In this document: positions 2-57,338 of the stretch, piece by piece
Layout of the letters: each line of letters opens with the position of its first letter
Position numbering within the stretch: the first letter of the stretch is position 1
The notes under the pieces: generated by a model
The model's database searches: none
What the model saw: only the letters and a program-made list of their open reading frames with translations
Told to the model about the DNA's origin: nothing
Translations under genes and position numbers: made by a program
Origin: Diplocarpon mali
Lineage: Eukaryota > Ascomycota > Leotiomycetes > Helotiales > Drepanopezizaceae
DNA: 57,338 nucleotides
Reading direction: 5' to 3'
Assembly (NCBI GenBank): GCA_024741835.1
Contig: JAENRP010000246.1
Span: forward strand, 1-57,338

Positions 2-3000
2 TTTATAAATAATAATTATAAAGTGATCTTTAAGGCTAAAATTAAAGATAGACTTTATATTATCTTAAAGGTAATATTATAAAAATTGACTCTTAGGCTA
101 GACTTATAAATAGATTCCTTTAAGGAAAGTGCACTCTTTGCTTTAATATAATTAAGCGAGGATAAGGAGAATAGATAGACTCTTAAGCTGGGATTATAAG
201 TAAAATTTGTAAAAATAACTCTTGAGTCAAGACTATAAGTAGATTGTAAAGTGTTTTTAAAGATGACTCTTAAGCTAGGATTATAAGTGAATTTAGTAGA
301 AATGACTCTTAAGCTAGGATTATAAGTGGATTTTATAAATTCGCTAATAATAACTCTTAGGCTAAGATTATAAGTAAAATTTATAGAAATAACTCTTAGG
401 CTAAGACTGCAAGTGAAATTTGCAAAATCGTTAGAGATAACTCTTAAGCTAGGACTATAAGTAGATCTTGCTATTTTTAGGAAATCGACTCTTAAGCTAG
501 GACTGCAAGTAGATCTTACGGTTTTATTAAAAACGACTCTTAAGCTAAGCTTGCAATTAGAAAATGGTAAAACTTTAAACTGCTATTACTAGTCCTTTTT
601 AGCCATTAATAATAAAGCATCGATTGACGATAGGCTACTAAAGCTATTAGAAGCTAAAAGCCTATTAAGGTATTAGCTAATATATAGAAGATTTGCGCAT
701 TTAAGGCTAAAGAAATTGAAGGGCTTATATAAGGTCTTAATTTTAAAATAGAAGATCTAAGTATTAAAGGATCGCCTAGTATGCCGAATTTGCAAGCTAA
801 TAAAACTTCGAAATCGGATGCGAACTAAGCTTAGTCTATAGAAAGATTTAATACTAGCGCTAATATCTATTAATATTACTAAACTATTTATAACCTTAAT
901 TAAAGGAAATAATTAGTTTTCTTAAATAGTAGATAACTCTACTTAATAGATATAGACTATTTGCGCTAAGATTAAATTTAAGCTTATAGAAAAGCTGGAA
1001 ACTTAGAAAGTGATAAAGGAACGCTAGACTTAATTAAAGCTAATAGCTATTAGGTCTGATAACGCATTAGAGATTAAGGTAAAGCTTAATAAATAGGTAA
1101 AACAAAGAGTTTATTACAAACTAATTATAATATATAAAGGTTCTTATTAGAATAGTATCGCTAAGCGAAGTATCTAATAAGTAGAGACTGACTATTGCGC
1201 TTTATTATAAGATGCTGACCTACTATTGGAATTCTAAGACCTTGCGGTTAAGGTAGATATATACTTGCGAAATAGAATAGGTAGTGGACTAATAGTTAAT
1301 AGCACTTAAATATTACTATATAAGGCATATTTCGGATAGAAATTAAGCCTGGATTATATTTGCGTCTTTAAAAGCGTTTGCTACTCTTATATTAGCTTAA
1401 AGTCCTAGCCTATAGGTATAAAGAGTAAAAAGCTAATAGATTAAGGTAGAGAATATATATTTATTAAGTATATTAAATAGATAATAAAGCAATAGATAGT
1501 ATATGTGCTAGATCTAAGGTAAGTAATTATATCCTTAGTAGTTGAGTTTAACGAATCTTAAAATAGGAGGGAGCTATCTTTAAAGCTTTATATACTTAGA
1601 GATTCGTAAGGTATATTACTTAATAGTAATACTATTAAGCTAAACTAATAACCCCTTTCTTTTAACTTAAGCATATTAAGCGCACCTGCTGATTGACGAC
1701 CTGCTAATTGCCTAAAGGTCGAATAGACTATTCCTATTATTTGCAAACTGCTTAAAGTATAGAATAACTTTAATATTATTATCCCTTTAGTTAAAGCACT
1801 TAAGGTAAAGGATATTCTTAAAATAGGTATAAGTAATAATAAGCCTTTACTATTAGAAAGCGGTTCCTTAGATAATAAGCCTATAGAACCTATAGCCGAA
1901 CTTATATCTTTAAAAAGGAATAGAGACTTAGAATTAGAAGATACCTTAGATAAACGCGAGTTTAAGTATATTTAAGCTATAATAGCATATAGGATCTATA
2001 AGCTCGAACTTCAATAGAGCTTTAATAAAGATAATGTGTTCTTAGCCGCTAGGGGGATAATGAAAATCTCTCTTTTAAAGATATACGATAAAGCTATTAA
2101 CGATTTAGAGAATAAAGTAGTATAAAGTAAGGCAATCTAAGAGGAGATAAGCTCTCTTATTGCAAATGGTATATAAATAGAAGAACTAATACTAAAGGAT
2201 ATAAACCTAGTATTAATAAAGTAGGTCTTTATAATTAAGATATATATAGATAGAACCTTAAAGCATTATAAGGCAAGGCTTATAGCTAAGGGCTTCTTCT
2301 AATAGTATAGAGAAGACTACTTTAATACGTTTGCGCTAATAGTTCGCATAGATACCCTTTGCATATTTATAGTAATAATAGCTGCTAAGGACTTTAAATG
2401 CAGATAGTATAATATTAAAAATGCATTTACTAAAGCAATTATAAAGGAATGGATTTTTCTCTCTTAACCTAACGGTATTCTTATATATGCTAGCTACTTT
2501 CTTTATATACTTTGCAGTATTTATAGGCTTAAATAATCAGCCTATAATTAGAACCTCTTATATAGCTCTGCTTTAGTAGAAATGGGATTTGTTTAAAGCC
2601 TAGCTAACCCTTATCTATTTACCTATATTAAGCGTAGAATTAAATTACTACTATATATTAATAATATTACTATAGTTGTAAAGATAACTACTTAATTGGA
2701 TTGGTTCTTTATAATAATTTGGAAACATTTTAATACTAAGGATTTAAAGGGAATTTATAAGATCCTTAGCATTTGTATTATAAGGAACCGCTCTACTTAA
2801 GAACTCTAGTTAGACTAAGAGTAGTATATTAAGAAGATCTTAGATCGAATAGGACTCTCTACTTATACTCTTAACTTTAAGCTAAAGCGTACTCCAATCG
2901 AAGGAAAGTATAATAAGTTAAAGCCTGCTAATAAAAATGAGTAAAGAGGAGATTTGAAGAAGTACTAATAGGATATTAAAGCAATTATATATACTATAGT

Positions 3001-3688
3001 ATATATAAGATTAGATATCGCCTTTATTATTAAGCAATTTAGTCAGAACCTAAAGGATCTAACGATTTGATATAAGAATGCAATCAAGCGATTTAGAAGA
3101 TACTTTCGATTAATAATTATATAAAAGGTAAGATATAGACTATCGAAATATATAAGCGTAAAGCTTAAGGTATATATCGATTCCGACTAGGCAAATATAA
3201 AAGGTTGGAAAAGTATATCTAGAAGCGTAGTAGTACTATATAATAAACCTATATTATAAGGAAGTAGGAAGTAGAAATCAATAGCTATCGCAAGCACTAA
3301 GGCCGAATATATATTAATATTATTAAATTGCAAATAAGGATTATAAATTACTTAAGTTTTAAAAGATATAGGTTTCGCTAAGTATATTAGATAAGATAGG
3401 AACTATATTAATCTTTAAGTAGATAATATAAGGGCAATTGCACTTGCAAAGAATCTACACTTATCAAAGAATCTACACTTATATAAGCGATCGAAATATA
3501 TCGATATTGCCTATTACTTTATTTGCAACCTTATTATAAAGAATAAGTTATTAATCATCTATATCTTAACTAATCGAATAGTAGCAGATGGATTTATAAA
3601 GCTATTAGAGATAGTTATAAAGTTTAAAGCATTTAAAGATATACTAGGATTATAGAAGATAGTAAGGGCTTAGCAGGCTTAAGGATAA
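2..3688 (+). pseudogene. Copia-1 Pol polyprotein remnant (pre-integrase, IN, RT, RNase H)
   Basis: A single frame (codons starting at 2, 5, 8 and so on) carries every domain with no net frameshift over about 1230 codons, up to TAA at 3686-3688. Stops inside it are almost all TAA/TAG where Copia proteins have Gln or Trp, which fits RIP. After the peptide-repeat array comes a pre-integrase segment (RFAHL near 689). The integrase core has its first Asp at 932, the second at 1058 in RSDNA, and the catalytic Glu changed to Lys at 1163. The integrase C-terminal part with the CVF and GREYIF blocks spans about 1349-1560. RT begins near 2060 (KHYKARLIAKGF at 2261); its YVDD box has become YINN at 2654-2665. 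RNase H runs to about 3660 with AEYI at 3302 and ADGF at 3584. Active-site losses and stops make it non-functional. Confidence 0.85.
89..558 (+). repeat. In-frame array of ten palindromic peptide repeats in Copia-1
   Basis: Ten copies of the window-wide palindrome start at 89, 179, 218, 266, 305, 353, 392, 440, 488 and 536. All starts are congruent modulo 3 and share the frame of the downstream Pol domains. After the first 90-bp step the spacing is 39, 48, 39, 48, 39, 48, 48, 48, so the product would carry alternating 13- and 16-residue repeats. Each unit reads T-L-K/R-L-G/R-L-Q-V-D/K/N followed by a variable 5-8 residues. The array lies just upstream of the pre-integrase domain. Confidence 0.9.
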
Positions 3689-3835
3689 CTCCTAGGCCTA
3701 CCCTACGAGTTAGGTTATATAGTCTTATAAAGGAAAGTTTTTTAATCGACTCCTAGGCCTAGACTGCGAGTCAAGTTATATAGTCTTATAAAGGAACGCT
3801 TTTAGAAATTTAACTCCTAGTCCCGCCCTATAAGT
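3688..3835 (+). repeat. Three palindromes in about 62-bp tandem units after Copia-1 pol
   Basis: Copies of the 23-bp palindrome start at 3688, 3749 and 3813. The spacers share TATATAGTCTTATAAAGGAA, so this is a short tandem repeat of about 61-64 bp. The first copy overlaps the terminal TAA of Copia-1 pol, so these copies are non-coding, unlike the upstream array. Confidence 0.8.
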
Positions 3836-3862
3836 AGGATTAGTGATTTTAATAGAGGTTGC

Positions 3863-4168
3863 TATTAATTAATTGTTTTTAATTTAAAGAGATACTTAAG
3901 AGTTAGATTAGCGCAAAAGGATAGTTGTTATTTTCCTAACTATAGGTCAATCGGAGTAAGGTCTAAATAGGGGTATTAAGATAGGTGATATAGCTATTAC
4001 TCTAATATATTATTATATGACCCTACTGCTTAATCAGTAGGATATTAATACGTATATAGTTATAAGGAAGAAAGGGGTAACCTTCCTTCCTTAACTCTTA
4101 CTAATATATCGACCATCGACCTTTAGAAGCCTCCTTTACCTACTGCGCCGACTCACTTAAGCTCAATA
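3863..4168 (+). repeat. Putative 3' LTR of Copia-1
   Basis: This is the non-coding segment between the palindrome cluster and the junction with Gypsy-1 copy A. It can be read as starting TATTAATTAATT (RIP-changed TGTTA) after a purine-rich AATAGAGG and ending CTCAATA (RIP-changed CTCAACA). No second copy is in the window, so the boundaries are inferred. Confidence 0.5.
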
Positions 4169-7100
4169 AGGTACTATAATATTATAGCAATAGCTTTAAT
4201 ATCTTAGAATATCAATTGAAATTGTTTAGCAATTATAATAAAAAGCCCTATTATTATTTATTCTATAGAAGAATCAGTTAAAGCAAAGGCTTTAATCGAT
4301 TATAGTTTAGAAGTTAATATAATAATTAGAAAAGTGGTAGAAATAGCTTAATTAATAATTGTTAGCAATCGACTCCTTATTTATTCGACTATCTCTAGAT
4401 CGAAATACAATTTTAATAAATAGGTGAAAAATATAAAGGTTAGAGTTAAAGGAATTATTAATTATACTAACTTTCTAATAATAGAAAATTCTTTAAATAA
4501 TATTCTTTTAAAAATGCCCTTTATTTTAAAATCTTAGCTAACATTTAACTATCTTAAAGATAGTCTTATAAAAGCTAGTCTTTAGAATATAGATCGATCC
4601 TTAAAAGGATAAATAGTTATTATAAGAGATATAGCCGAATTTTAAAATAAGGTTTTAAGAAACGATTAGCTAATATAAGGGCTAGGCTTAATGCTAATAA
4701 AGGAAGGCACTTAGTAAGGAGTTATAGTAAAAGAAAGGTAAGTTTGCCGATTTTAAATAATAGTGATTTGACTTATGGTCCTAGACTAAGAGTTAAATCT
4801 AGAATTTTGAAAAATAGTACAATCGGCGTTTTATTAGCTTAATAATTAAGAAAAAATAAAAATAAGGTAGAGAAGAGAGTTTGTTTTATAAATTTCGATA
4901 ATTTACTAATTATTTTAAAAAACTTAAAAACTACTTATAGGCTAGACCTATAAGTGAAAAACAATAAAATTACTAATAATATTTCCATTTATATACTTTA
5001 AATTAATAACTTAAAAAATCTTTTATTTATTTTTAAAAAGGAAAATTCGGACTATTTTATAAGATTTGATAAAAAAGGAAAGAAGTAGAGAAGTATAGTA
5101 TTAGCTAATATTCGAACTATATATAAAAGTAAGGCTGATAAAGTATAACCGATAGATTAGGGAATCTCTAATGGCTTAAAGCCTAAAGGACTAGATAATT
5201 GGTTTAAATAAGATAAAAAGCTTTGACCTCTAAAGCCGGGTGGCAAATTCGATAAGTTTATTATAAGCAGATTTTCTAATAAACCTATTAGATATTAGCT
5301 AATAAAAGAACGTTTCGATATATTGAAAATTAAAGAAGACTTAATAAAGTAAGAATGCAAACTACTTTATAAAACTTTAATAAATCGAAAGGATACCTTA
5401 ACTTTTGATTAAATGGAACTTAGCCAGATTTAAGAAAAGGTTATACCTTATATTAAGATTAAGATAATACCTTATAAAGCTTAGTAAGAGAAAACATTTG
5501 AAGTCCTTAAAGCTCTTTAAGAAAAGGTAATCGAAATATTAAAGGATAGGCTAAAGTAAGGTGTTTTCGAGTTTTATAATAGCCTTTATAAGAATAAATA
5601 GTTCTTAGTTATTAAGAAAGAGAAGGGAACTTATAGACTAATAATAGTAGTAGTAAAGATGAACTAAGTAATTATTAAAGACGCTAATATTCCTTTAAAT
5701 ATAGATAAGTTCTTAAATGAATTTATAGGATTAACCTATAGCTCTCTTATTAACTTCTTCTTTAGATATAACTAATTTATTCTTAATATTAAATCAAAAG
5801 ATATAATAGTAATTCAAACCCCTCTTAGGCTACTTTAAATGATAAGATTACCTTAAAGGGCTATAAATTCGATCGCTCAATTTGTTTAAGTAATCTATAA
5901 GATACTAGTGGATTATATACCTAATATTACGCTCCTTTATATAAATGATATAAGAGTAAAAGGATTAAGATCATTTTATAACTATAAAGAAGTTCTCCTT
6001 AGTATATAACGATTTATAATAGAATACATTTAGAACCTAGACTAGGTACTTATATAATTCGAAAGGGTAGGAGTAATAGTTAGTTTAAAGTTATAATACT
6101 ATCTTTTATTAATAAAAATTGTTAGTTTTATTACTGATTCTAATAGCCGAAGTCCTTAGAAGGCTAAAGTACTTAAAATCGATAAATAGAAGAGGTATAA
6201 TAATATGGCGGAAGCTTATGCGTTTATTAGTATTATAGTATACTATTGCATTTGGATTAAAGATTTTACTAAAAAGGCAGTACCTATTTATGCCTTATTT
6301 TGGAAAGGGGCTAAGTTTTAATAGGAGGAACCTTAAATAGAGGTTATAAAACAACTGAAGCAAGCGTTACTTAAAGTGCTATATTTGATTAAAATAGACT
6401 ATAGAGCTGACGCTAGGCCAATTATATTAATAGTTGATATAAGCTTAATCGAATAGGGTGCTGTCCTTTAATAAGCTAATAGCTAATAGAAAAGATATTT
6501 AGCTTACTTTAAAAGTGGTCTTTGGAATCTAATAGAGATAAAGTATAATACTATTAAATAGGAATGTAAAGGAGCTTTAAAAGCAATGAAAAAGATAAGA
6601 AGCGACCTTTATAGCACTTACTTCATCTTTGAAACTAATACTAAAGTGCTAATAGAATAATTAAATAGAGCTATAAGTAACTTACTTAAAGCCTTGCTAA
6701 TGAAATAGATTACTTAAATAAGACTAATAGACTTTAAAGTCAAATATATTCTAAGAATGAAAAATACTATTATAGATAGCCTTTTAAAAAGAACTCGCCC
6801 TTACCCCTTTGATTTAATTAAAGAAGATAAAATAGATATTAATAAGTAGGTAGAGAACGAAGTTGGTTATTTATTAATATATTACTTTAAAGGGACTTGA
6901 CTCTTGGTCTTAGCCTGCGAGTTAAATAAGAGAATTTTATCACTTAACTACTTAAGTGACTTTGAAGAAATCGTAAAATTTTTAATTATACTTAGATAAT
7001 TAAAGATAGTCACTCTTAAGGATTTTTAGAAATTCAAAGCTAAAGCTCTGATTTATCTAATATAAAGAAGACGATTATTTAAAAGAAGTAATAACTTATT

Positions 7101-8440
7101 CCTTATATAATTCTACTTAAATAATAAAAAACTAAAGGCTAAGGCTATTTAGGATATTTATAAGGAAACTAGCTATTAAGGAGCTAAGTCTACCTACTAC
7201 TGACTCTTAAGGAAATTCTTTTAAAAGGGTTCTTTTAAGGACTATAAAGCCTTTATGAAAAGTTGCATCCCCTATTAGAAATAAAAACCTAGTTGTAAAG
7301 AGAATCCCTTATTCTTAACCTAGCCATTAGGCCTTTTTTATAAAGTTAGTCTTAATATTATATAAGTATTAATAATTGAAAATGGGATTATATATTTTAT
7401 TTTAATAAAGGAAGACCTATTAAGATAGCTTAAAGGATAACCTTTAAGATCTACTAACTTTAAATCTATTATAAAGTTCCTTTAAGAAGACGTAGTCTAT
7501 TGCTATAGACTTTTTAGCAGACTAACTATTAATAGAGGCTTTGAAAATAAAGGAGTAGTTAAAGCTTTTTTACAAAAATATAGTATTAAATGGGTTTAAA
7601 TCTTAATATATAACTTAAAAGCTAATAGAGTAGTAAAGTAAGGATATTATAATATTCTTAATAAGCTATCTAAAGTTACTTATAAAAGATTTAAGAATTA
7701 GATAAAACACTTTTATAAAATACTCTTTGCTTATTAAACGATAATCTATAAATCAACTAAAGTTATACTATTTTTCCTTATTTATAATAAAGAGGTATAG
7801 CTCCCTTTTAAATCCTAATAGCCTATTTAAAGATTATTTAATTATAGTCAAATTCAAAACCGTTCCGATTTACTTATAATAAGATTCTAATAACTTAAGC
7901 TTTAAGATATAGATATAAAGGAAATCATTTTGCAAAAGAAACGATATTAGGAAAAAGCTAAAGAAGTATAGGCTGCTTTTAAAGTACTTAAAACGCACCT
8001 TATTTGAAAAGATAATCTCGTCTTAATCTATAATATTTTAAAAAGTATTAATATATTAGTAGATATTAAACTTAACTATTAATAGCTTAATCTATTTAAG
8101 GTTAAATCTAAGTAGAAAGAAATGGAATACTATTCTCTTTAAGAACTTAATAGAATTGATATCAAAAGAACCTTTATAGCTAACTGACTAAAGCGCTCTT
8201 ATTAACGCAATTAAACCTTATTCCTTTTAAAAGATAAATTAGAAATTAATATAACCTTCGAATCTTTTATAAGAACTGATAGCAATATAAGCAACTTTAA
8301 ACCCTTAGATAAAGATTAAGATTTTTCCAACTTAACTTATAAGCCAGTCCTATAAGTAAAGAATATTAAAATACCTAATTAATTGCAATCTTAAGTTATT
8401 ATTCCTAAAATATCCGAAGAATACAAATAGGAATATTAAA
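4169..8440 (+). pseudogene. Gypsy-1 copy A pol remnant: protease, RT, RNase H, integrase
   Basis: The aspartic protease has its ALID-type motif at about 4289-4300, in codons starting at positions 2 modulo 3. From about 4765 on, the coding frame is one base back (1 modulo 3) and carries the rest. RT covers about 5400-6250, with the YIDD box reading YIND at 5938-5949. RNase H covers about 6390-6830. The integrase zinc-binding region lies at about 7050-7320 and the core at about 7330-7860, with the KFL.EDVVY..RLFSRLT block typical of fungal Ty3/Gypsy IN. Most stops are TAA/TAG. The terminal stop cannot be separated from RIP stops, so the end at about 8440 is approximate. Confidence 0.8.
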
Positions 8441-8652
8441 TGATTTCCTAGCTTATCAATTGTCTTACCTTCCTTTAATCCTTATTTTTACATTTTTAGT
8501 AAAGTTGCCTCCTTTATTATTTAAGATATAAATCTTTTAGGATTACCTTAAATTCTTACCTACTTTAACTCATTTTACATTCTTAATATTAGCCTTTAAT
8601 TATAGTATTCCTATTACTTTCCTTAAATAATAAATAAAAAGTCCAATTTCCT

Positions 8653-8751
8653 TAATATATATATAGCAAACCTATTGCAGCTTATATGCCCTTTTAATTC
8701 TTATACCCTATTAAACTCTTTTATTTACACTTCTTATCTTTTATAAGTAAT
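8653..8751 (+). promoter_or_regulatory. Possible promoter and CT-rich leader of ORF2 (copy A)
   Basis: A TATATATATA-type box at about 8655-8665 is followed by a pyrimidine-rich stretch running up to the ATG at 8752. The same arrangement is in copy B before 29497. CT-rich leaders before the ATG are common in filamentous-fungal genes. In sequence this AT-rich a TATA box is weak evidence. Confidence 0.3.
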
Positions 8752-11700: not shown

Positions 11701-12070
11701 ATAATATGATAAAGTAAATGCTATCTAAGAGCCTAATATACTAATTAATAAAGGCATTATTATAAGAAAATTCGGAAAAGAGATGAACTAAGATATTAGT
11801 ATAGTATTAGACCCTAATTTAGAAACTAATCTCCTATTTTTACCCTTAAGCTTAGAAATGCTAAGACTGATTCGCAAGCCTGGCTTGCAAGTAAGGTTGG
11901 ACTCAGCTGGCTTAAGCCTATAAGATAGTTCGGATGAACCTTAGTTACTAAATCTAGAGGTACTAATAGAAGATCTTTTAAAAGAGGTCCTTAAAGCTGA
12001 AAAATCGCTAAGAAATAAGAATTAATATAAGAGAAGAAGACTCTAAAGTAATAATAGAATTAATAATTGA
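8752..12070 (+). pseudogene. Gypsy-1 ORF2 (copy A), unrecognised protein, paralogue of ORF3
   Basis: This is the same long ORF as in copies B and D, downstream of integrase. It starts at ATG 8752. Copy A has one extra base near 9632 compared with B and D, which shifts its frame from 1 to 2 modulo 3. It still has TGA at 12068-12070 where B and D have TAA, so a true ancestral stop there is likely (TGA to TAA is a RIP-type change). Three palindromes lie inside it, at 9598, 10985 and 11870. The function is unknown; see the copy B entry. Confidence 0.7.
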
Positions 12071-12349
12071 GTCGACTTAAGCCTAGAGAATCGAGTCTAC
12101 CCCCCTTTAAAAACCATTTAGAGAGATTGCGAATTAGAAGTTGAATTTTTTTAGGATTATCTACTTTTTATATACCTGTACCTCTTTATTCTTAACCTAT
12201 TATTCCATTCTATATATTCTTTATTTACTTTACTCTTTATATAATTCATTCTTTAATTATTCCCTTTATATATAACTTTCTAACGCTTACCTTTGAAATA
12301 TCGTCCTTACCTTTGACAATTATCATTTACTAATTATAGGTCCTTATAT
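12071..12349 (+). other. ORF2-ORF3 spacer of copy A, cut short by copy B
   Basis: This is a T-rich, CT-rich non-coding stretch collinear with the start of the ORF2-ORF3 spacer in copy B (32815-33097). I see no gene in it. Several overlapping hydrophobic reading frames are expected from T-rich sequence alone. Confidence 0.6.
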
Positions 12350-12594
12350 TATAAAGACCTAAGATGGATAGGTCTTATGACATATATCATATAATCGGCG
12401 TAGGACAGTAGGAGGATAAAAGGGCCATCTTCTATATATAAAGACAGCGCGTGTTACCATAGTACTAAATATACCCTATACTTAGGACTTATTCCTAATA
12501 TCTTATCTAAGAGAGCCCGCTTATAGTACTTCCTCCTTTTGTTTTTAGGTCTTCCCTTAGGCCTATTCTTATATTATCTCCCCTTAGTTTTATA
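12350..12594 (+). repeat. 5' LTR of Gypsy-1 copy B
   Basis: This is a 245-bp LTR matching the 246-bp LTRs of copy D in reverse. It begins TATAAAGACC and ends TTTTATA, readable as TG...CA ends altered by RIP. Near its start AGACCT and AGGTCT form a short inverted repeat, also seen in the LTRs of C and D. It is followed by TTAGTGACCTACGC, where a primer-binding site would lie. Confidence 0.85.
12433..12443 (+). promoter_or_regulatory. TATA box in the Gypsy-1 LTR
   Basis: TATATATAAAG stands just before a GC-rich ACAGCGCGTG in the LTR. The same box is kept in the copy D LTRs (sense strand minus). It probably marks the U3/R border where the genomic transcript starts. Confidence 0.5.
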
Positions 12595-45463: not shown

Positions 45464-46027
45464 AATGAATTATTTAATAGGGGGAGGGTAGTTTTAAATA
45501 AAGAGATAATTATTTAAGAAAGATTAACGATATAGGAGGCTTATACTAGAAAAGATTGATAATAAAAGATAATAGTAGTAGTACTGGTATTATAGGTCTA
45601 GTAGGGTTATAGAAAAAGTAAAAAAAAAGTAAAATCGTAGTGCGGGTAAAGGCTTATTTATAGAGTTTGAAATCGCGCTAGTACACAAAGGAAAAGTAGG
45701 TATAATAAGCTTAAAAGTAGGAATAAAAGTAGGGTATAATGTATATAAGGACCTACAATTGGTAAATAACAATTGTCAAAGGTAAGGAAGACATTTCAAA
45801 GGTAAGCATTAGAAAGTTGCATACAAAGGGAATAATTAAAGAATGAATTATATAAAGAGTAAAGTAAATAAAGAATATATATAGAATAGAATAATAGGTT
45901 AAGAATAAAGAGGTATAAGTATATAAAAAGTAGATAATCTTTAAAAAATTCAACTTCTAATTCGCAATCTCTTTAAATAGTTTTTAAAAAAGGGGTAGTA
46001 GACTCGATTCTCTAGGCTTAAGTTGAC
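45464..46027 (-). other. ORF2-ORF3 spacer of copy D
   Basis: This is the counterpart of 32815-33374, with the TATAAATAAG box (sense) near 45650-45662. A 66-aa hydrophobic ORF at 45753-45953 and a 60-aa ORF at 45590-45772 arise from T-rich leader sequence. The first could in principle be a C-terminal extension of ORF2, but the conserved stop argues against it. Confidence 0.5.
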
Positions 46028-49000
46028 TTAATTATCAATTCTATTATCACTTTAGAGTCTTCTTCTCTTACGTTAGTTCTTATTTCTCGGCGATTTCTTA
46101 GCTTTAAGGACCTCTTTTAAAAGATCTTCTATTAGTACTCTTAGATTTAGTAACTAAGATTTATTTAAACTATCTTATAAGCTTAAGCTAGCCGAGTCCA
46201 ACCTCACTCGCAGGCCAGGCTTACGAGTCAGTCTTAGCATTTCTAAGCTTAAGGGTAAAAATAGGAGATTAGTTCCCAAATTAGGATTTAATACTATACT
46301 AGCGTCTTAGTTTATCTCTTTTTTAAATTTTCTTATAATAATACCTTTATCAATTAGTATATTAGGCTCTTAGATAGCATTTACTTTATTATACTATTCT
46401 TAAGACTTGAGTTTATAAAGAAGCAATTTAGTATTTATAATGTTCGTCTAGGCCTTAATAAGAGTATTAAAGAGCTTTTAATTATATTTTATAAAGTGGA
46501 TTTTCAATTCGTCTTTATTAAGAAGAAACAACTCCTATACTTCGATTATAATTAATAGATCTATTTAAGAGCGTCGATTAATAATGGCTTTAAAAAGGCT
46601 ATTATAATTCTTAAGATGAAAAGCTGCCTTAAAAGGTGCAGTAATTCTACTTGCATTAATCTATTAAGGTACTAGAGGTTGCTTTAGAGTAAAGATTGAA
46701 AAGACAAAATCGGAGATTCGAGTCTCATTTTCTAAGGTATTCTTATTAAGGACGGCTATATAGTTATTGCAAAAGGCTATAAAACCATTAGTTTTATAAG
46801 AATTATCTAAAAGCATTTTAAAAAGGTATCCTTATTTTATTATTACTATAATTAGATTACTATTATTAGTAATAGGTTGTAAGATCTCCTTTTGCTTTAA
46901 CTTTACAATTATTTAAGCTAGTTGAGATTTTGAACTAAGTGCTTAAGAAGTCTATCGACTTATCTTTTTCGCAAATAGAGTGAGTTTTATAATTAATTAA
47001 AAGCCGACCTACTTATTAAGGCTTTTAAAAGCTGGCCCTTATCTAATCGATAGGATCTAATAATCTAAGACTTACTTTCTAATAAAATTGACTCGCAGGC
47101 TAGGACCGTAAGTAAAAATCGGAATTTCTTTATTAGTAGTACTTGTATCTCTCTTTATTAAAACGACTTAATTATAAAGACTAAGGCCAATTAATTAAAG
47201 AGGTTCGAAGTAGGCCATAAGCTAATAGGCTCCTTTACTTTTCGCTATTATAACTAAGAGGTAGAGTCTATAATATATTTAAAGGATTTATTAAGTAAGG
47301 CTAAATATCATATTATAAAGAAAATAAGAAGGTATAAAGGTTGCATTATTTATAAGGCGGAAGTAATAAAGGTATATCTTTACTTCTTATCTTATAATAG
47401 AGAGGAATATACTTATAAAAGCACTATTATTAGTAGTAAAATTATTAGTTAGAAAGCGGCATCCAAAGGGTTTAAGCATTATAATTAACCCTTCTTCCTC
47501 TATTTCCTCTTACTATTTATTACTTAATAATATCGAAAAGAAAGAATTGTTCTATTTAATCGGCTTTAACGCCTTTAAGGCTTTGGGATTAGCCTTAAAT
47601 TTTATAATACTTAGAGATACTTCTATTATTAATAGGTTGGATTTGCATATCTTTAAAGAGATAAAGAACTAATTATTAAGATAGATTAAAAAAAGATTAA
47701 TATCTTTTATTATATAAAGAAGTTCGAGGTATTTAATAGTTTTATTAATATTAAATCCTTTATAATTAAGACTATAGTAAACCGAAAGAGAGCAAATATA
47801 AAGGTTGCAAAGTCTTCTCCTTTCGATTCTTATGCTAAGAAGATACTATCGAAAGCGAGTCTTTATTATAAAGGACACTTAAATATTATATCGTTCTTTA
47901 AGCTTAAGGTTAAGAATGATCGATTGAGGTATATTATTATAATTATAAATATCCTAATTAATAGATTCCTTTTTATATTCTCTTTCTTATAAGATAAAAT
48001 AGTCTCGCTTAGCATCTAAGAGACTAGGTTCTTAACTTTTATAATTATTAAAAAATTAAATAATATTTATAAAGGCGAACTTATTTAAGATAAGCTATTA
48101 AATCTATTTAATAGCTCTCTTAATTGTCTTTAGAGTAATAGGAATAGGGTCTTCCTTTATATTATTATTTTTAAAACAGTTGTATATAAATATAAAGAAG
48201 TTAAGAATTAGCTTCTTTAAGTTATTAAGGAAGGAGTTTAAGCGAGCGCGTAATCCTTTAGTTTTAAATTGCAAATCAGCTAAGGTAGCTATTAAACGAT
48301 CTATCCTTTTTAAAGGTTAAGTTAAAATAGGTCGTTTAGCTAAAGGAGAGTCCTTTGAAGATTCTGAAAATTCCAAAGAGGCTATACTAAGCGTTTAGGC
48401 AATTTGTTTAACAGCGGTTTTTAAAATTATTTCGATAAAAGGCAAGTTAAGTCTAGTTTTAAAATTCTTATTTCTAACTCTTAGTCTAAGACCGCGAGTT
48501 AAATTATATAATTTAGTACTTATTATATCTTTAGATTAAAAAGCGAATTTTAAGGTAAGCTTAATTATAAATAACTAATTCCCTTCTTTATTATTAAAGA
48601 AATCTTATTTAAACTCTATTATAAAAGTCCAGTTCTCTTTTAAAATAAGCAAACTATAAGTAGAAGCGTAGAGCCTTAGTATATTAATAATAGTACTATT
48701 AGGTAAGGTAATATCTATAGCTTAATTTGATCTTTTTATAGCCTTATCAGCTACTATAAGTATTGCATTAGATAGGCTTATAAATCTGCGACTGCGAATT
48801 CGATTGCCTTAGAATTTTACTACTTCTTTTTAAATAATAAAGAAATTGAGAATCTAAATAGCTCTAGTAGTAAGAGTGTTTTCCTTAAGAATTTTTAATA
48901 ATACTTATCTTCTATTATTAAAATCAATATTTATTAAGAAGCGCGAACGAAATAGGAGTCCTTTTTTATTAGTGGCTAAATTATCTAATTATTAAATAGA

Positions 49001-49345
49001 TTCTTCTCTTTTATCTTAATCTATTTTAAAAGTATTGGCTAAGGTTATATATTAATTTGCATTAGCTAAGAATTCCTCTTTAAAGATTCCCTTTAGTCTT
49101 AATTCTTTAATTAGGAAGTTGTTAAATTGGAGAATTCCAGGGGCCACTTAGGTTAAAAGGTTATTAATAGCATTCGCATAAGCTAAAAGGAGTTTTTATT
49201 ACTTTATATCTCCTAAGGTTATATAGGTCGATTTAAAGTTTTCTAATAATGCAATAGCTCTACTATCTTAAGAGAAGTTTATAACTAGTATTTATTTATC
49301 CTCTATTATAGCAGATAAAACCATTTATGAGTTCTTTCAAGGTAT
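46028..49345 (-). pseudogene. Gypsy-1 ORF2 (copy D)
   Basis: Counterpart of 29497-32814, with the start ATG changed to ATA at 49345-49343 and the stop TAA at 46030-46028. Palindromes lie at 48477, 47091 and 46206. The length is not a multiple of three, so at least one indel has occurred. The KIRKSN block and YPKP block are recognisable. Confidence 0.7.
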
Positions 49346-49654
49346 ATTACTTATAAAAGATAGGGAGTATAAATAAGAGAGTTTAATAGGGTATAAGAAT
49401 TAAAAGGGCATATAAGCTGCAATAGGTTTGCTATATATATATTAAGGAAATTGGACTTTTTAATTTATTATTTAAGGAAAGTAATAGGAATGCTATAATT
49501 AAAGGCTAATATTAAGAATGTAAAATAAGTTAGAGTAAATAAGAATTTAAAATGATCTTAAAAGATCTATATCTTAAATAATAAAGAAGGCGTCTTTATT
49601 AAAAATGTAAAAATAAGGATTAGAGGAAGGTAGGACAATTGATAAGCTAAGGAA

Positions 49655-52600
49655 TCGTTTAATATTCTAGTCTGCGTTCTTTAGATATTTTAAGAATAAT
49701 AAATTAAGGTTGCAATTAGTTAGGTATTTTAATATTCTTTACTTATAAGACTAGCTTATAGGTTAAGTTGGAAAAATCTTAGTCTTTATCTAAGGGTTTA
49801 AAATTGCTTATATTACTATCAATTCCTATAAAAGATTCGGAGGTTGTATCAATTTCTAATTTATCTTTTAAAAGGAATAAGGTCTAGTCGCATTAGTAAA
49901 AGCGCTTTAATCGATTGGCTTCAAAGGTTCCTTTAATATCGATTCTATTAAGTTCTTAAAGAGAATAGTATCCTTTTTCTTTCTACTTAGATTTAACTTT
50001 AAATAGGCTAAGCTATCGATAGTTAAGTTTAGTATCTGCCGATATATTAATACTTCTTATAATATTATAAACTAAGATAAGATCATCTTTTTAAATAGAG
50101 TGCGTTTTAAGTACTTTAAAAGCAGCCTATGCTTCTTTAACTTTTTCCTTATATTATTTCTTTTGTAGAATGATTTCCTTTATATTTATATTTTAAAGCT
50201 TAAGTTGTTAGTATCTTATTACTAGTAAATCGGAACGGTTCTAAATTTGACTATAGTCGAATAATCTTTAAATAGGCTATTAGGATTTAAGAAGGAGCTA
50301 TGCCTCTTTACTATAGATAAGGAAAAATGGTATAACTCTAGTTAGTTTATAAATTATCATTTAATAAGTAAAGAGTATTTTATAAAAGTGTTTTATTTAA
50401 TTTTTAAATCCTTTATAGGTAACTTTAGATAGCTTATTAAGAATATTATAATATCCTTACTTTACTATTCTATTAGCTTTCAAGTTATACGCTAAGATTT
50501 GAACCTATTTAATACTATATTTTCGCGAAAAAGCTTTAACTACTCCTTTATTTTCAAGGCCTTTATTAATAGTTAGTTTGCTAAAAAGTCTATAGCAATA
50601 GACTATATCTTTTTAAAGGAACTTTGTAATAGATTTAAAGTTAGCAGATCTTAAAGGTTATCCTTTAAGCTATCTTAATAGGTCTTCCTTTATTAAAATA
50701 AAATATATAATCCTATTTTCGATTATTAATACTTATATAATATTAAGACTGACTTTATAGAAAAGGCCTAATAGCTAGGTTAGGAATAGGGGATTCTCTT
50801 TATAACCAGGTTTTCGTTTCTAATAAGAGACGCAACTTTTTATAAAGGCTTTGCAATCCTTAAAAGAACCCTTTTAAAAGAATTTCCTTAAGAGTTGGTA
50901 GTAGGTAGACTTAGCTCCTTAATAGCCAGTTTCCTTATAAATATCCTAGATAGCTTTAGCCCTTGGTTTTTTATTATCTAAGTAGAGTTTTATAAGGAAT
51001 AAGTTATCGCTTCTTTTAAATAATCGTCTTTCTTATATTAGATAAATTAGAGCTTTAGCTTTAAATTTCTAAAAATCTTTAAAAGTAACTATCTTTAATT
51101 ATTTAAGTATAATTAAAAATTTTGCGATTTCTTTAAAGTTACTTAAGTAGTTAGGTGATAAAATTCTCTTATTTGACTCGTAGGCTAAGCTTGCAAGTCG
51201 AGTCCCTTTAAGGTAATATATTAATAGATAACCAATTTCATTCTCTACCTACTTATTAATATCTGTTTTATCTTCTTTAATTAAATTAAAAGGGTAGGGA
51301 TAAGTTCTTTTTAAAAGGCTATTAGCAGTAGTATTTTTCATTCTTAGAATATATTTAACTTTAAAGTCTATTAGTCTTATTTAAATAATCTATTTTATTA
51401 GTAAGGCTTTTAGTAGGTCGCTTATAGCTCTATTTAGTTATTCTACTAATACTTTAGCATTAGTTTCGAAGATGAAGTAAGTACTATAAAGGTCGCTTCT
51501 TATCTTTTTCATTACCTTTAAGGCGCCTTTATATTCCTATTTAATAATATTATACTTTATCTCTACTAGATTCTAAAGACTACTTTTAAAGCAAGCTAGA
51601 TGTCTTTTCTATTAGCTATTAGCTTATTAAAAGATAGTATCCTATTTGATTAAGCTTATATTAATTATTAGTATAATTGGCCTAGCGTCGGCTCTATAGT
51701 CTATTTTAATTAAATATAGCACCTTAAGCAACGCTTACTTTAGTTGTTTTATAGCCTCTATTTAAGGTTCCTCCTATTGAAACTCAGCCCCTTTTTAAAA
51801 TAAGGAGTAAATAGGTGCTGCCTTTTTAGCGAAATCCTTGATCTAAATACGATAGTATACTATAACGCTAATAAACGCGCGAGCTTTTGCTATATTATTA
51901 TACCTCTTCTATTTATCGATTTTAAGTACTTTAGCCCTTTAAAGACTTCGGCTATTAGAATTAGTAATAAAATTAACAATTTCTATTAATAGAAGATAGT
52001 ATTATAACTTTAGACTAACTATTGCTCTTACCCTTTCGAATCGTATAAGTACTTAATCTAAGTTCTAAATATATTCTATTATAAATTGCTATATATTAAA
52101 GAGAACTTCTTTATAGTTATAAAATGATCTTAATCCTTTTACTCTTATATTATCTATATAAGGGAGTGTAATATTAGGTATACAATCTACTAGTATCTTA
52201 TAGATTACTTAAACAAATTGAGTGATCGAATTTATAGCCCTTTAAAGTAATCTAATCATTTGAAGTAGCTTAAGAGGGATTTGAATCACTATTATATCTC
52301 TTGATTTAATATTAAGAATGAATTAGTTATATTTAAAGAAGAAGTTAATAAGAGAGCTATAAGTTAATCTTGCGAATTCATTTGAGAACTTATCTATATT
52401 CGGAGGAACGTTAGCATCCTTAACAGTTACTTAATTCATTTCTACTACTACTGTTATTAGTCTGTAAGTTCCCTTCTCTTTCTTAGCAACTAAGAACCAT
52501 TTGTTTCTATAAGGGCTATTATAGAACTTAAGAATACCTTGCTTTAGCCTATCCTTTAACATTTCGATTACCTTTTCTTAAAGAGCTTTAAGGACCTTAA

Positions 52601-53327
52601 ATGTTTTCTCTTACTAAGCTTTATAAGGTATTATCTTAATCTTAATATAAGGCATGACCTCTTTTCGAATCTAGCTAAGTTCTATTTAGTCAAAAGCTAA
52701 GGCGTCCTTTCGATTTATTAAGGTTTTATAAAGTAGTTCGCATTCTTACTTTATTAAGTCTTCTTTAATTTTTAATATATTGAAATATTCTTTTATTAGC
52801 TAATATCCGATAGGTTTATTAGAAAATCTACTTATAATAAACTTATCGAATTTGCTACCTAGCTTTAGAAGTCGAAGCTTCTTATCTTATTCAAACTAAT
52901 TATCTAATCCTTTAGGCTTTAAGCTATTAGAGATTCTCTAATCTATCGATTGTACTTTATCGGCCTTGCTTTTATATATAGTTCGAATATTAGCTAGTAC
53001 TATGCTTTTTTACTTCTTTCCTTTTTTATCAAATCCTATAAAACGGTTTGAATTTTCCTTTTTAAAAATAAATAAAAGATTTTCTAAGTTATTAATTTAA
53101 AGTATATAGATAGAAATATTATTAGTAATTTTATTATTTTTCACTTGCGGGTCCGGTTTATAAATGGTTTTTAAGTTTTTTAAAATGATTAGTAAATTAT
53201 CGAAATTTGTAAAATAAACCCTCTTTTCTGCCTTATTTTTCTTTTTTCTTAATTATTATTCTAATAAAACGCTAATTGTACTATTTTTCAAAATTCTAGA
53301 TTTGACTCCTAATCTAAGACTATAAGT
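49655..53327 (-). pseudogene. Gypsy-1 copy D RT, RNase H, integrase
   Basis: Integrase at about 49745-51075, RNase H at about 51265-51705, RT at about 51845-52695. The RT box reads YIDN at 52149-52160, while copies A and B read YIND, so the three copies lost different Asp residues and the ancestor had YIDD. Palindromes at 53305, 53143, 51176 and 49741 match the sites in A and B. Confidence 0.78.
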
Positions 53328-56300
53328 CAAATTGCTATTATTTAAAATCGGCAAACTCACCTTTCTTTTACTATAACTCCTCGCTAGGTGCCTTCCTTTA
53401 CTAGTATTAAGCCTAGCCCTTATACTAGCTAATTGTTTTTAAAACCTTATTTTAAAATTCGGCTATATCTCTTATAATAACTATTTATCCTTTTAAAGAT
53501 CGATCTATATTCTAAAGACTAGCTTTTATAAGACTATCTCTAGGATAGTTAAATATTAGCTAAGATTTTAAAATAAAGGGTATTTTTAAAAGAATATTAT
53601 TTAAAGAATTCTCTATTATTAAAAAGTTAGTATAATTAATAATTCCTTTAACTCTAACCTTTACGTTTTTCACCTATCTATTAAAATTGTATTTCAATCT
53701 AAAGATAGTTAAATAAATAAGGAGTCGATCGCTAACAATTGTTAATTAAACTATTTCTACTACTTTTCTAATTATTATATTAACTTTTAAATTACAATTA
53801 ATCAAAGCCTTTGCTTTAATTGATTCTTTTATTAAATAAATAATAATAGGGCTTTTTATCGCAACTGCTAAATAATTTCGATTGATATTCTAAGATATTA
53901 AAGCTATTGCTATAATATTATAATACCTCTAGGTTCCTTCGTTTTCTATAATTTAAAGACATTTGATTAAGGCTAGGTGCTTCTTAAAGTTCTTTTATAT
54001 TATAATTTCTATTTCCTTATTATTATTTAAATCTTTAAAGGCAACTGGGATATACTTTCCTAGCACTTTATTAAAGTATTTAATTAAACTAAATAGGTCT
54101 TTAAACGTAAGATTAATTTGCTAAGTTATAATATTCTTTATAGCTTTCTCTATTACAGTTGAACTAGCGTATTTATTAATGAATTTTTCCTATTTTAATA
54201 TCTATCTCTTTCGCTTAAAGTCAGGGGTCTATATAATAACTTTAACTTTTTAATCTTTAAGCTTAAAGTCATCTTCGTCTATTATATCTCTGATTAATTC
54301 GTTTGCTATATCAGCTTTATCCTTATCTATTGCGGTTCTAGATTATTAAGTATCTTTTAGTATTTAGACTCTATATTAAGATTCCTAAGTTGCACGTATT
54401 AATTTCTGGACTTTAGCTGATTTTATTAATATTAAAGGAGTAGTAGATCTAGAAGGACGCTAAGTATTCTAAGGGTTTCTAAATATAAAAGTAGCATTAA
54501 TATTAATAGATATATTATTATTAACCTATCCTAAGATAGAGATACCTTTAACTTCTATAGCTATTTAATTAGAAGCTAAGTCCTTAAGAACTCCTTTAAA
54601 TAGGTTGCTAGTTAGATTAGTATATATATAAGTTGGAATTTTAGCATTTATATTTATAATATGCTATTATTCGATTAAATTCTTATCCTATTTCATACTA
54701 TATATCATTATTCGAATAGTCTATAACTATAAGCGATTCTAGTACTTTTTAATAGGGATAGCTTTTAGCCTAGGATCTTTAATACAAAGCATCCTATACT
54801 TATTAATATATATAACCCTAGTATTAATAAAACAATAGAAAAGAGGGCAATCGTTATAATACTTATATAGAATACAATTAGGTTCTTTATTATTACAAAA
54901 GTTATAAGTTAGTCGTCTTCTATTGCCATTCCTTTAATACCTTATAGCATTAATATTAGTAGAGTACTAATTGGGATTAATTTCTCCTTTTTCAATTAAC
55001 TATTAAGTTCTTATATTAGCTGATTATTTTAAATGATAAGAAGTAAGAGTCTAATAATAGGAACTACTATATTAACTTATAGTGGCCGAGTTTTACCTAT
55101 TATTAAATTAAAGAATATGCTATTTTTCTTATAAGAGATTGTTAATCTTAGTTTTTAAGCTTTAGATTTAGAGTTCTGCAAATTGGGTCTTAAGTTCCTT
55201 AATTCTAGGGTTGGATCTTACTCTTAAATCGGGCCTGCGAGTGAAAGGTATAATTACTAGGTTCTTCTTTACCTCTTCTATAACTTCTAAAGCCTTTAAG
55301 TATTCTTGGACTAGGCTCTTAAGGTCTTTAATATAAAAGGGAGTAAGGGCTTTTTCCTATTTTATAGTATTAATAGTTCTCTTATTAAGATCTGATTTTA
55401 AAGTAAAGGCTGCGAATTCCTTAAATAAGGCGAAGGTTATAGGGTTTTACTTATCGATCTTAAAATGCTTAATAATCTTATTTCAAAGTCTAATAGGTAA
55501 TCTAAGTAAGAAAAGGCGGCCTCTTTTAACTTCGCTAAGTATTTTCTAGCTAATTAAAGTATTTAATATATAAGTAAAAGTCCAATAGTAGTTCTTAAGT
55601 TCCTTAGGAGTATAAGTGATTAGAACAAATTCCTTTAAGAAAACTAAGGTATTACGAATCTGCTATCTATTAAATTCGCGAAATTCAGATTTAAGGGCCT
55701 TAATAAGGAGTTCTTATAAACTATAAGTTTTCCATTTAAGGAGGGATTTAATAATATCCTTGCTTATATAATTATAGTAGTAAGGAAGTTAAGAAATCAT
55801 ATCCTCTTATATAATACTAAAATTATAATAAGTTTCCTTATATTGCTTAAGGAAATTAGTAATATTAGCGCCTATAAAGTAAAGAGCATTAAAGGAACTA
55901 AGGAAAGGAAAGTAATTAATAATAGCCTTAAATGCGGCTATTATCGTTTTATACTAACTGTCTAGGTTAATAGAATCTATAAGGGGTAAAGGAAAAGCTT
56001 CGATATTACAAGATTGATTGCTAAAAGGAGTACTTCGAAATTCAAAAGGGCTTAAAAAATATTCAGAATCCGAGTCAATCTTAAAGTAATTAAGACGAGT
56101 TTAAAAAGATTTAAATAAAGGGTTAATAAAAAGTTTAAAATTATTATTATTTTTAGTATTTTCTAATATTAATATTGAAAAAGTAAGTAGTAGTTTTAAG
56201 TTATTTAAGGATGTCTTTTTATCCTCTTACTTATAAGCTAGGCCTAGGAGTAGAATTCCGAATTCTATTAAAAGTTTAATCCGAGTTTGCTAAAAGATTC

Positions 56301-56922
56301 TAAATAGGTGCTAAATAGCTAATAGAAGCGTTACAACTAATCGCAATAAGATAAGGTTTACTTAATTAAAGACCAATTTCTAAAATAAGATTTATATCTA
56401 AGATTCTTCTTAGCCTTTAAGCCAATTCCTATTAGTCCTTAGAATAAAGGGGTCTTTAGAGACGATTCTAAGGCAATTTTTAGAGTTCTATTAAGCCGAG
56501 GCAGCTGAATTATCGGATTCGGATTTCTAAAGATTCTAAAGAGGCACTTCCGATTGAAGTTTACGCTTAGTATTACTTAAGTACTTAAAACCACTGCTAT
56601 TTAAGATTACTATTATAGGGTTCGCCAAACTTTTTATACTAAGAAGTTGAAAATTCCGAAAATCTCAAAGTTAAAGAAGAAAATAGGGGTTTTTAAAGTA
56701 GAGCTAAAAAGGGAAAATCTAAGGTTATTAATAATTACTAAATGAAAATCGATAGTTTTAAGTAACTAAGCGATTAAAGATAAGGTTTTAAAGTTAATTA
56801 AAATACTATAAGTGTTTCAAAGATATATTTCAAAGGCCGGTCTCTTATTTATAAACCAAGAGATCGATAAGGTTATATAAGAACGGAAATCTTAAGAAAT
56901 CGGTCCTTGCATAAGTCACTAA
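53328..56922 (-). pseudogene. Gypsy-1 copy D leader and gag-protease
   Basis: Protease at about 53335-53845. The gag zinc-knuckle region lies near 54850-54910. The gag body extends to about 56150, and the N-terminal gag frame continues into 56150-56650 before the leader. Palindromes lie at 55220 and 56229. The copy is uninterrupted here and serves as the empty-site reference for elements C and Gypsy-2. Confidence 0.75.
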
Positions 56923-57168
56923 TATAAAACAGAAGGGGGATAATATAAGAATAGGCCTAAGGGAAGACCTAAAAACCAAAGGAGGAAGCACTATAAGCAG
57001 GCTCTCTTAGATAAGATATTAGGAATAAGTCCTAAGTATAAGGTATATTTAATACTTATAGCAATACGCGCTGTCTTTATATATAAAAGATAGCCCTTTT
57101 ATCCTCCTACTGTCTTACGCCAATCATATGATATATATTACAAGACCTATCTATCTCAGGTCTTTATA
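56923..57168 (-). repeat. 5' LTR of Gypsy-1 copy D
   Basis: 246 bp, partner of 36790-37035. It abuts the GTAT target-site copy at 57169. Confidence 0.9.
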
Positions 57169-57172
57169 GTAT

Positions 57173-57222
57173 TATCTAATAATAGTTTTCTCTATCCTTT
57201 AAAAAGAACTAAGGAAAACTAA
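57173..57222 (+). pseudogene. Last 17 codons of ORF3 (copy B)
   Basis: This continues in frame from 36789 across the copy D insertion and ends at TAA 57220-57222 after K-R-T-K-E-N. It matches 37410-37459 in copy D. Confidence 0.75.
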
Positions 57223-57338
57223 TACTTAGGTTAGTTTTATTTTAATTGTTTTTATAATTCTATAGCTTGATTATTTATTTTACTAATTTCGTTTTCTAAC
57301 TCCTAGGCCCGGCCTATAAGTGAAAAGTATATAAAAAA
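57223..57338 (+). other. 3' region of Gypsy-1 copy B up to the window edge
   Basis: Non-coding AT-rich sequence with one palindrome at 57299-57321; it matches copy D 37330-37409 in reverse. I see nothing else in it. Confidence 0.6.
57299..57321. repeat. Palindrome site S14 (3' region)
   Basis: The arms ACTCCTAGGCC and GGCCTATAAGT overlap by one base. The D counterpart is lost in the 138-N gap. This site is non-coding. Confidence 0.85.

Follow-up and report, generated by a model that had tools for sequence, protein, structure and literature searches.

Rickettsia palindromic elements (RPEs) are palindromic units of about 150 bp that lie in frame in coding genes of bacteria and encode a conserved peptide (PMC10969869), and such in-frame elements are said to occupy non-structured segments (PMC2996958). 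PARCEL, a 75-nt tandem in-frame repeat with DNA dyad symmetry, encodes a 25-residue amphipathic domain and is sometimes linked to mobile elements (PMC2996958). As described in these two sources, in-frame palindromic inserts are known mainly from intracellular bacteria (PMC10969869, PMC2996958). In yeast mitochondria, GC clusters form a family of mobile DNA (PMC4478555). The short palindromic repeats of Volvox, described as selfish palindromes with a mean length of about 50 nt, lie in organellar intergenic or intronic DNA, with one exception in an rRNA module; they also occur in the nucleus, where the copies appear inert (PMC2670323).

A palindrome in LTR retrotransposons of Diplocarpon mali is described here, starting from a window of 57,338 nt (the whole stretch of DNA that was analysed). 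It resembles RPEs in being read in frame in coding DNA (eight of the nine places with a fixed frame in phase 0, the ninth in phase 2) and PARCEL in forming tandem in-frame repeats with DNA dyad symmetry. Compared by features rather than by sequence, it differs from RPEs in size (a 23-bp core, about 35 bp in all), in its fungal nuclear LTR carriers and in its frequent tandem arrays; from PARCEL, as that family is described, it is set apart by units of 39, 45 or 48 bp and by the peptide T(P/R)RPGL(R/G)V. The mitochondrial GC clusters of yeast are likewise short, GC-rich and palindromic and stand in AT-rich DNA, whereas the present palindrome lies in nuclear-type retrotransposons and is coding in frame. 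It shares shortness and nuclear occurrence with the Volvox repeats, but not their length or their intergenic and intronic organellar setting. With regard to MITE-like elements, no target-site duplication above noise and no empty site was found. A full-text literature search, with most subscription papers lying outside its coverage, found no fungal nuclear case.

Motif and abundance

The window was scanned with a symmetric profile built from the same window, using a cut-off of 14 bits. Above this value 52 sites were found, against a mean of 0.20 and a maximum of 1 in 50 approximate dinucleotide shuffles scanned with the same profile. The result was checked independently with a fixed 23-mer; allowing up to three mismatches, it gave ten matches in the window and none in 100 shuffles. 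In the 49.4-Mb genome a degenerate pattern gave 2375 + 2473 strand matches and the reversed control pattern gave none. The preliminary description had counted at least 51 copies of a 23-bp palindrome, 13 in Copia-1 and 38 elsewhere, and the positions reproduce this count, with a weak site at 1395 in addition. The copies are not independent: each of the seven sites of Gypsy-1 copy A has a counterpart at the homologous position in copies B and C, with constant offsets, so the window sites do not represent 51 separate events. The 23-bp core was also recovered, but as the full length it was too short, since comparison of the flanks showed that these are symmetric too (RAWYYN-23-NRRWTY). With these flanks the GC-rich unit spans about 35 bp.

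When 35-nt sites were folded as RNA, five of six were more stable than shuffles (z of −2.1 to −4.7); window site 10985 was no better than shuffles (z −0.4). Covariation between the arms at positions 9/15 gave no clear pattern among 154 sites. A near-consensus pattern had no exact match in prokaryote genomes or in viral contigs. In a comparison of Gypsy-1 copies A and B, the palindromes differ more than their flanks (83.9% and 88.6% identity, respectively, for seven sites). The appearance of the palindromes as GC islands may be helped by C-to-T decay, if most C contexts in the motif are spared.

Distribution

Features of the window are listed in Table 1. The Gypsy-1 used for alignment is 15.7 kb long with 248-bp LTRs; in copy A the RNaseH domain scores above the Pfam cut-off and the integrase (IN) zinc domain below. 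The segment at 33.2–38.9 kb and its mirror, probably the element C of the preliminary description, match the 3' part of this Gypsy-1. The statement that Gypsy-2 and Copia-2 lack the motif held in the profile scan of the window.

Table 1 Retrotransposons and palindromes (pal.) in the window
Feature	Positions	Strand	Remark
Copia-1 tandem array	58..582		10 pal., upstream of RT region; starts 89, 179, 218, 266, 305, 353, 392, 440, 488, 536
Copia-1 weak pal.	1395..1417		profile score 17.0
Copia-1 3' end	3688..3835		three pal.; starts 3688, 3749, 3813
Gypsy-1 copy A (partial)	4168..12349	+	by alignment to Gypsy-1
Copy A pal.	4771..4793		upstream of RT, phase 0
Copy A pal.	4933..4955		upstream of RT, phase 0
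Copy A pal.	6900..6922		between RNaseH and IN, phase 2, different peptide
Copy A pal.	8335..8357		after IN, phase 0; flanked on either side by protein similarity to P0004
Copy A pal.	9598..9620		where low-stop frame changes
Copy A pal.	10985..11007		second open region, phase 0 of low-stop frame
Copy A pal.	11870..11892		second open region, phase 0 of low-stop frame
5' LTR and leader	12347..13378	+	taken as start of Gypsy-1 copy B
Leader pal.	13271..13293		outside LTR
Nested fragment pal.	13836..13858		more diverged Gypsy-1-like fragment
Nested fragment pal.	13959..13981		same fragment as 13836
Nested fragment pal.	14391..14413		same fragment as 13836; inverted relative of 23600
Split pal., left piece	15370..15375		ACTTGC; CTTGC is the target duplication
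Gypsy-2	15376..21727		inserted within a pal.
Split pal., right piece	21728..21749		
Gypsy-1 copy B, remainder	22691..36792	+	
Copy B pal.	23600..23622		5' part
Copy B pal.	25516..25538		homologue of 4771
Copy B pal.	25678..25700		homologue of 4933
Copy B pal.	27645..27667		homologue of 6900
Copy B pal.	29080..29102		homologue of 8335
Copy B pal.	30343..30365		homologue of 9598
Copy B pal.	31729..31751		homologue of 10985
Copy B pal.	32614..32636		homologue of 11870
Copy B pal.	34263..34285		3' part
Copy B pal.	34449..34471		3' part
Copy B pal.	35679..35701		3' part
Copy B pal.	36501..36523		3' part
Copy C pal.	37735..37757		3' part
Copy C pal.	38557..38579		3' part
Copia-2	38959-43464		no pal.; separates copy C from its 3' end
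Gypsy-1 copy C	43526..57175	-	3' end resumes at 38954-37330, past Copia-2
Copy C pal.	44367..44389		
Copy C pal.	44553..44575		
Copy C pal.	46206..46228		homologue of 11870
Copy C pal.	47091..47113		homologue of 10985
Copy C pal.	48477..48499		homologue of 9598
Copy C pal.	49741..49763		homologue of 8335
Copy C pal.	51176..51198		homologue of 6900
Copy C pal.	53143..53165		homologue of 4933
Copy C pal.	53305..53327		homologue of 4771
Copy C pal.	55220..55242		5' part
Copy C leader pal.	56229..56251		homologue of 13271
Pal.	57299..57321		type 231 bp before a Gypsy-1 3' LTR (as C1:409266)

Among the loci read, the carriers comprise at least four LTR families (Copia-1, Copia-3, Gypsy-1 and Gypsy-3), and most are dead copies. 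The same palindrome is present in loci with Copia-type reverse transcriptase (RVT_2) and in loci with the Gypsy type (RVT_1), and has therefore crossed between unrelated elements, in agreement with the earlier view that it moved between families. Both strand orientations are used. The 236 sites from the loci read collapse to 26 flank contexts, not all of them assigned to a family; one of the 26 consists solely of sites from 60 loci added later, which were picked from the listed pattern matches and not at random. In Gypsy-1 the units are single and dispersed, with unrelated flanks, at 14 positions in each of two copies on contig C1. This contig (560 kb) is among those on which sites lie in LTR retrotransposons and which also carry stretches with a GC content of 0.46–0.49. 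Seven of nine 10-kb loci with a GC content of 0.41–0.49 have no site; the other two, L010 and L024, have two and four, respectively, in locally AT-rich stretches. Three perfect matches in the genome lie in L028–L030, two with Copia domains and one beside a Copia-1 array. L028 also carries a Gypsy-3-like patch. Pfam scans of L023 (minus strand), L012 (5–10 kb, minus strand) and L014 (1–5 kb, plus strand) found nothing.

Reading frame and protein context

The palindrome translates as T-P/R-R-P-G-L-R/G-V on either strand. In coding parts it sits between domains, and, decay stops aside, the same reading frame runs before and after it. The predominance of phase 0 among places with a fixed frame has a tail of 0.001 under equal phases; when the Copia-1 array, whose frame was assigned by stop density, is left out, seven of eight places agree (tail 0.0026). 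The exception is site 6900, which encodes another peptide. A count based on the longest open frame (122 of 138 in phase 0) was set aside as evidence, since stops are rare in that phase within the motif itself. The phase bias could also be read as selection on the peptide.

In the pol frames of L024 and L028, the sites (766/811/859 and 924/972/1020, respectively) lie between an SH3-like match (520–729 and 681–887), below Pfam's cut-off in both loci, and RVT_2 (1216–1935 and 1374–2096). The pol frame of L023 likewise has interdomain sites, at 4720/4765 and 6667/6712, with RVT_1 at 5434–5904 and RNaseH at 6103–6495. The Copia gag–PR linker holds two units, and is found likewise in two Diplocarpon coronariae proteins. 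Ten pol relatives (P0004–P0013) lack the peptide pattern, for which the shuffle expectation is only 0.6; they differ in linker length, with a longer stretch between RNaseH and IN in P0004 and P0005, and are thus no proof of an insertion at this linker.

Tandem arrays have periods of 39, 45 or 48 bp, and all unit spacings in the coding arrays examined are multiples of three. Those of the Copia-1 array (90, 39 and 48 bp) are identical in L008 and L022, and its phase 0 falls in the plus-strand frame with the fewest stops. The trio at the 3' end of Copia-1 in the window breaks the rule, with spacings of 61 and 64 bp, and lies at or beyond the end of the low-stop frame; elsewhere, this end has one spacing of 66 bp, a multiple of three, in L023 and in both L026 pairs. 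Unit number varies in the linker after RNaseH of Gypsy-3: among 40 scored copies, 11 have one unit, 26 two, two three and one four, in steps of exactly 45 bp.

Tests for insertion

Copies lacking a site that sister copies possess were sought, and none was found: no case among 1077 alignments lacked at least 12 of the 23 bases, and no empty site occurred among 40 scored copies (of 195 candidates) or among 40 scored rows of a second set (of 271 candidates). No transfer or insertion event was thus caught in these three sets. A weaker test for target-site duplication gave a slight excess of flanking direct repeats (4.0 versus 3.56, p = 0.0145, 25 contexts). Duplication was rejected, as this signal was gone in the register-by-register test, where no register rose above noise (best z 2.6, 360 tests, 26 contexts).

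Origin and spread

We put at about an even chance the explanation that the palindrome is a short GC-rich coding module which travels as a hitch-hiker with LTR retrotransposons, spreads at the reverse-transcription stage, survives where it is tolerated and is amplified with its carriers. Spread within and between families would have taken place at the RNA or cDNA stage, probably during reverse transcription, through template switching or slippage of the enzyme at the hairpin, and possibly through DNA recombination too. Selection would have removed copies that broke the frame or hit a folded domain, so that survivors would be left in linkers and near element ends. Amplification of the carriers would then have produced the thousands of genomic copies, which are probably now decaying by C-to-T mutation. 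More tentatively, and at rather less than an even chance, the palindrome may be a eukaryotic nuclear counterpart of RPEs: a coding module of about 35 bp that passes between Copia and Gypsy elements during reverse transcription, can be read from either strand and adds new in-frame linkers and linker arrays to polyproteins.

The preliminary description had proposed a miniature palindromic mobile element. Its comparison with RPEs is supported by the in-frame habit, and the crossing of families is upheld; dispersal by the palindrome itself is not supported, given 236 sites that collapse to 26 contexts, no empty site in the three sets and no target-site duplication above noise. A true mobile DNA element of the MITE or GC-cluster type, inserted by a trans-acting transposase or endonuclease and showing linker and frame bias as a survivor effect, is unlikely. 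The same sequence in unrelated contexts and both orientations would fit it, as would the direct-repeat excess and the symmetric flank preference RAWYYN/NRRWTY, which could be a target consensus; against it stand the noise-level register test, the lack of empty sites in all three sets, and the fact that just one context is made up solely of the 60 later loci, so that no wide scatter is seen. We regard as decidedly improbable a functional spacer or processing site in the polyprotein, with selection acting on TPRPGLRV at the boundaries of domains, the palindrome being incidental or an aid to its spread. Such a role agrees with the places occupied in several families (gag–PR, before and after RT, RNaseH–IN, after IN) and with the phase shared by eight of nine, but at the RNaseH–IN boundary site 6900 gives another peptide, the leader and near-3'-end sites are left unexplained, and both strand orientations are in use. 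The motif is, moreover, common to several families, whose proteases should differ.

Least probable of the readings considered are ordinary slippage minisatellites in linkers combined with descent, in which a few old tandem duplications and recombination between retrotransposons would suffice with no special mobility. Array periods, unit-number variation and the presence of sites in all copies compared are what it would predict; the single dispersed units of Gypsy-1 with unrelated flanks, and a core common to Copia and Gypsy loci, are not. It has been proposed that in-frame palindromic inserts can give rise to new protein segments. If the hitch-hiking module is the correct reading, a eukaryotic retrotransposon case with thousands of copies, arrays and changes in unit number would make the mechanism testable (copying by reverse transcriptase versus DNA insertion), and small coding motifs would be able to cross between unrelated retrotransposon superfamilies.

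Minus-strand frame and Gypsy-2 insertion

A 175-aa open reading frame on the minus strand at 58–582 was rejected as a real protein and is probably a reverse reading: it has no methionine, the phase-0 frame of the plus strand is the low-stop frame of Copia-1, and none of 7990 scored candidates proved to be a relative at E ≤ 1. The profile site at 21727 is part of a single palindrome into which Gypsy-2 has inserted, duplicating a 5-bp target (CTTGC). A preference of Gypsy-2 for palindromes as targets was considered and rejected because, among 60 left flanks listed genome-wide with a pattern that drops flanks beginning with G, only three or four resemble palindrome pieces by eye, which is near what the density of palindromes allows.

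Abundance, carriers and anatomy of the palindrome

With a strand-symmetric profile, for which the window itself (contig C246) served as training set, 52 window sites score above 14 bits, against a mean of 0.20 and a maximum of 1 in 50 approximate dinucleotide shuffles, so that the palindrome, counted in the preliminary description at 51 copies or more, stands above shuffled background. A fixed-pattern check in the window gave 10 matches with 0 expected. Across the genome (49.4 Mb, 676 contigs) matches to a degenerate pattern number 2375 on the forward strand and 2473 on the reverse, counts that overlap since one site may score on both strands; the reversed control pattern has 0. Twenty ten-kilobase loci were read. 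Seven of the nine with GC 0.41–0.49 have no site, and the remaining two have 2 and 4, within locally AT-rich stretches; ten of the other 11 carry 4–13 sites, and no palindrome was found in the eleventh (L013).

Flank clustering placed 154 sites in 25 contexts. With 60 loci added, picked from the listed pattern matches on many contigs, 236 sites fell into 26 contexts, one composed solely of new loci; these numbers are approximate because tandem units were chained together. Most contexts, not all, were placed in four families of LTR retrotransposons (Copia-1, Copia-3, Gypsy-1 and Gypsy-3). Gypsy-1 spans 15.7 kb, unusually long for a fungal Gypsy element, with LTRs of 248 bp that are 90% identical. 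Palindrome positions are common to its three window copies (A, B and C), and each of two copies on contig C1 holds 14 palindromes, with none in the LTRs.

Symmetry extends into the flanks: pyrimidines occupy position −2 in 51 of 52 flanks and −3 in 47 of 52, and the extended consensus is RAWYYN-core-NRRWTY. Core positions 5 and 19 are often mismatched (C/C, or G/G if reversed, in 14 of 25 contexts), so the palindrome has a direction. Its phase 0 translation is TPRPGLRV in one orientation and TRRPGLGV in the other. A Copia gag-PR reading frame taken from this genome matches three proteins, each of them a hypothetical protein of Diplocarpon coronariae, and palindrome-encoded peptides are present in two, which points to Diplocarpon or a near relative as the most probable source fungus. 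One published genome of D. coronariae is given as 51.2 Mb, Copia elements making up 20.7% and Ty3 elements 5.7% (PMC11527701).

Positions and reading phase

Frames were set by Pfam scans with stops replaced by X. Matches to RVT_1, RVT_2 and RNaseH lie above the Pfam cut-offs; those to SH3-like, Pol_BBD, gag (L029) and, in the Gypsy-1 copy A scan, integrase zinc domains lie below, the last passing its cut-off in L012. Linkers without a domain match were named PR or IN from the usual domain order, the Copia PR label also on what we take to be its motif.

Palindrome places and nested features (window coordinates unless stated)
Element	Place or feature	Position	Palindromes	Frame or similarity
Copia-3	gag-PR linker		two units	in frame
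Copia-3	INT-RT linker, SH3-like domain to RVT_2		three units	in frame
Gypsy-3	upstream of RVT_1		two sites	in frame
Gypsy-3	after RNaseH		one to four units	in frame
Gypsy-1	upstream of RT		two sites	
Gypsy-1	between RNaseH and IN	6900	one site	
Gypsy-1	after IN		one site	similarity to pol protein P0004 on both sides
Copia-1	upstream of RT		ten-unit array	lowest-stop frame, window copy
Gypsy-1	past integrase	9600–12100, 33200–36800		
Gypsy-1	copy B, apparently split	12347–13378 + 22691–36792		
Gypsy-1-like	diverged inverted fragment	13379–22690		
Gypsy-1-like	direct repeats of that fragment	13373–13623 / 22441–22691		87%
Gypsy-2	insertion in that fragment	15376–21727		
Copia-3	patch past 3' end	L028 3323–3451		70% to the Gypsy-3 post-RNaseH linker

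Phase 0 is used in eight of nine frame-fixed places (tail 0.001 under equal phases), or in seven of eight with the Copia-1 array left out (tail 0.0026); the exception, site 6900, encodes another peptide. For the site at the 3' end of Copia-3, loci L024 and L028 give conflicting frames. In a Copia-1 copy on C1 the frame shifts downstream of the ten-unit array, which an indel there would explain. All coding-array spacings examined are multiples of 3 (90, 39, 48, 45, 84 and 54); for the Copia-1 3' trio, the window and L008 both show spacings of 61 and 64, L023 shows 61 and 66, and two L026 pairs show 66. The peptide pattern is absent from ten related pol proteins, a weak result as only 0.6 would be expected in shuffles, and these give no clean insertion evidence because their linker lengths differ.

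Origin and spread

Being common to Copia and Gypsy loci, the palindrome shows passage between these families, the individual steps of which were not seen. Copying at the RNA or cDNA stage is the favoured route, since the identified carriers are LTR elements, five of six tests gave the unit a hairpin fold superior to that of shuffles, and gain or loss comes in whole 45 bp blocks. The Gypsy-3 post-RNaseH unit is exactly 45 bp; among 40 of 195 candidates, source copy included, 11 have one unit, 26 two, two three and one four, and aligning L014 with L023 base by base shows the 45 bp difference directly.

Spread as a DNA-inserting element is rather unlikely, target duplications and empty sites both being absent here. 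No site missing at least 12 of its 23 bases was found among 1077 site-spanning alignments (redundancy included). For the joined flanks of sites 4771 and 4933, 40 of 271 candidates were scored, the source copy among them, with no empty site; 39 rows contain 48 bases more than the query, and the remaining row, truncated at a contig end, contains 24 more. The Gypsy-3 post-RNaseH linker likewise gave no empty copy among 40 scored of 195. Copies lacking a site present in sister copies, proposed in the preliminary description as a check on a miniature mobile element, thus numbered 0 in the alignments and in both 40-copy sets. A selected processing or spacer peptide, a reading that the phase bias speaks for, is likewise unlikely. 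The suggested likeness to Rickettsia palindromic elements holds for the in-frame, linker-like places and conserved peptide but not for size, host and setting; no fungal nuclear case was found in the full-text literature searched, mostly papers outside subscription journals.

Decay and nesting

Between Gypsy-1 copies A and B, identity is lower in palindromes (83.9%, 135/161) than in flanks (88.6%, 744/840), and therefore the palindromes seem not to be protected at present. The C/T and G/A spread would fit RIP-like decay. Gypsy-2, which carries no palindrome of its own in the window, sits inside one palindrome with a CTTGC target duplication, so the interrupted palindrome predates this Gypsy-2 copy. 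A few left flanks of other Gypsy-2 copies on contigs C518, C598 and C637 resemble interrupted palindromes (e.g. C518:7276 and C637:421). In the window, the inverted fragment that apparently splits copy B is in turn split by Gypsy-2, giving three nested layers. Several kilobases of formerly open sequence lie past the Gypsy-1 integrase; a Pfam scan at E ≤ 1 matched nothing in two stretches of copy A, one of 754 residues and one of 318 residues close to the end of the copy. The L028 patch, which lies past the 3' end of a Copia-3 element, measures about 130 bp and shows 70% similarity to the Gypsy-3 post-RNaseH palindrome linker; it is either a Gypsy fragment that has diverged or a piece that was transferred.
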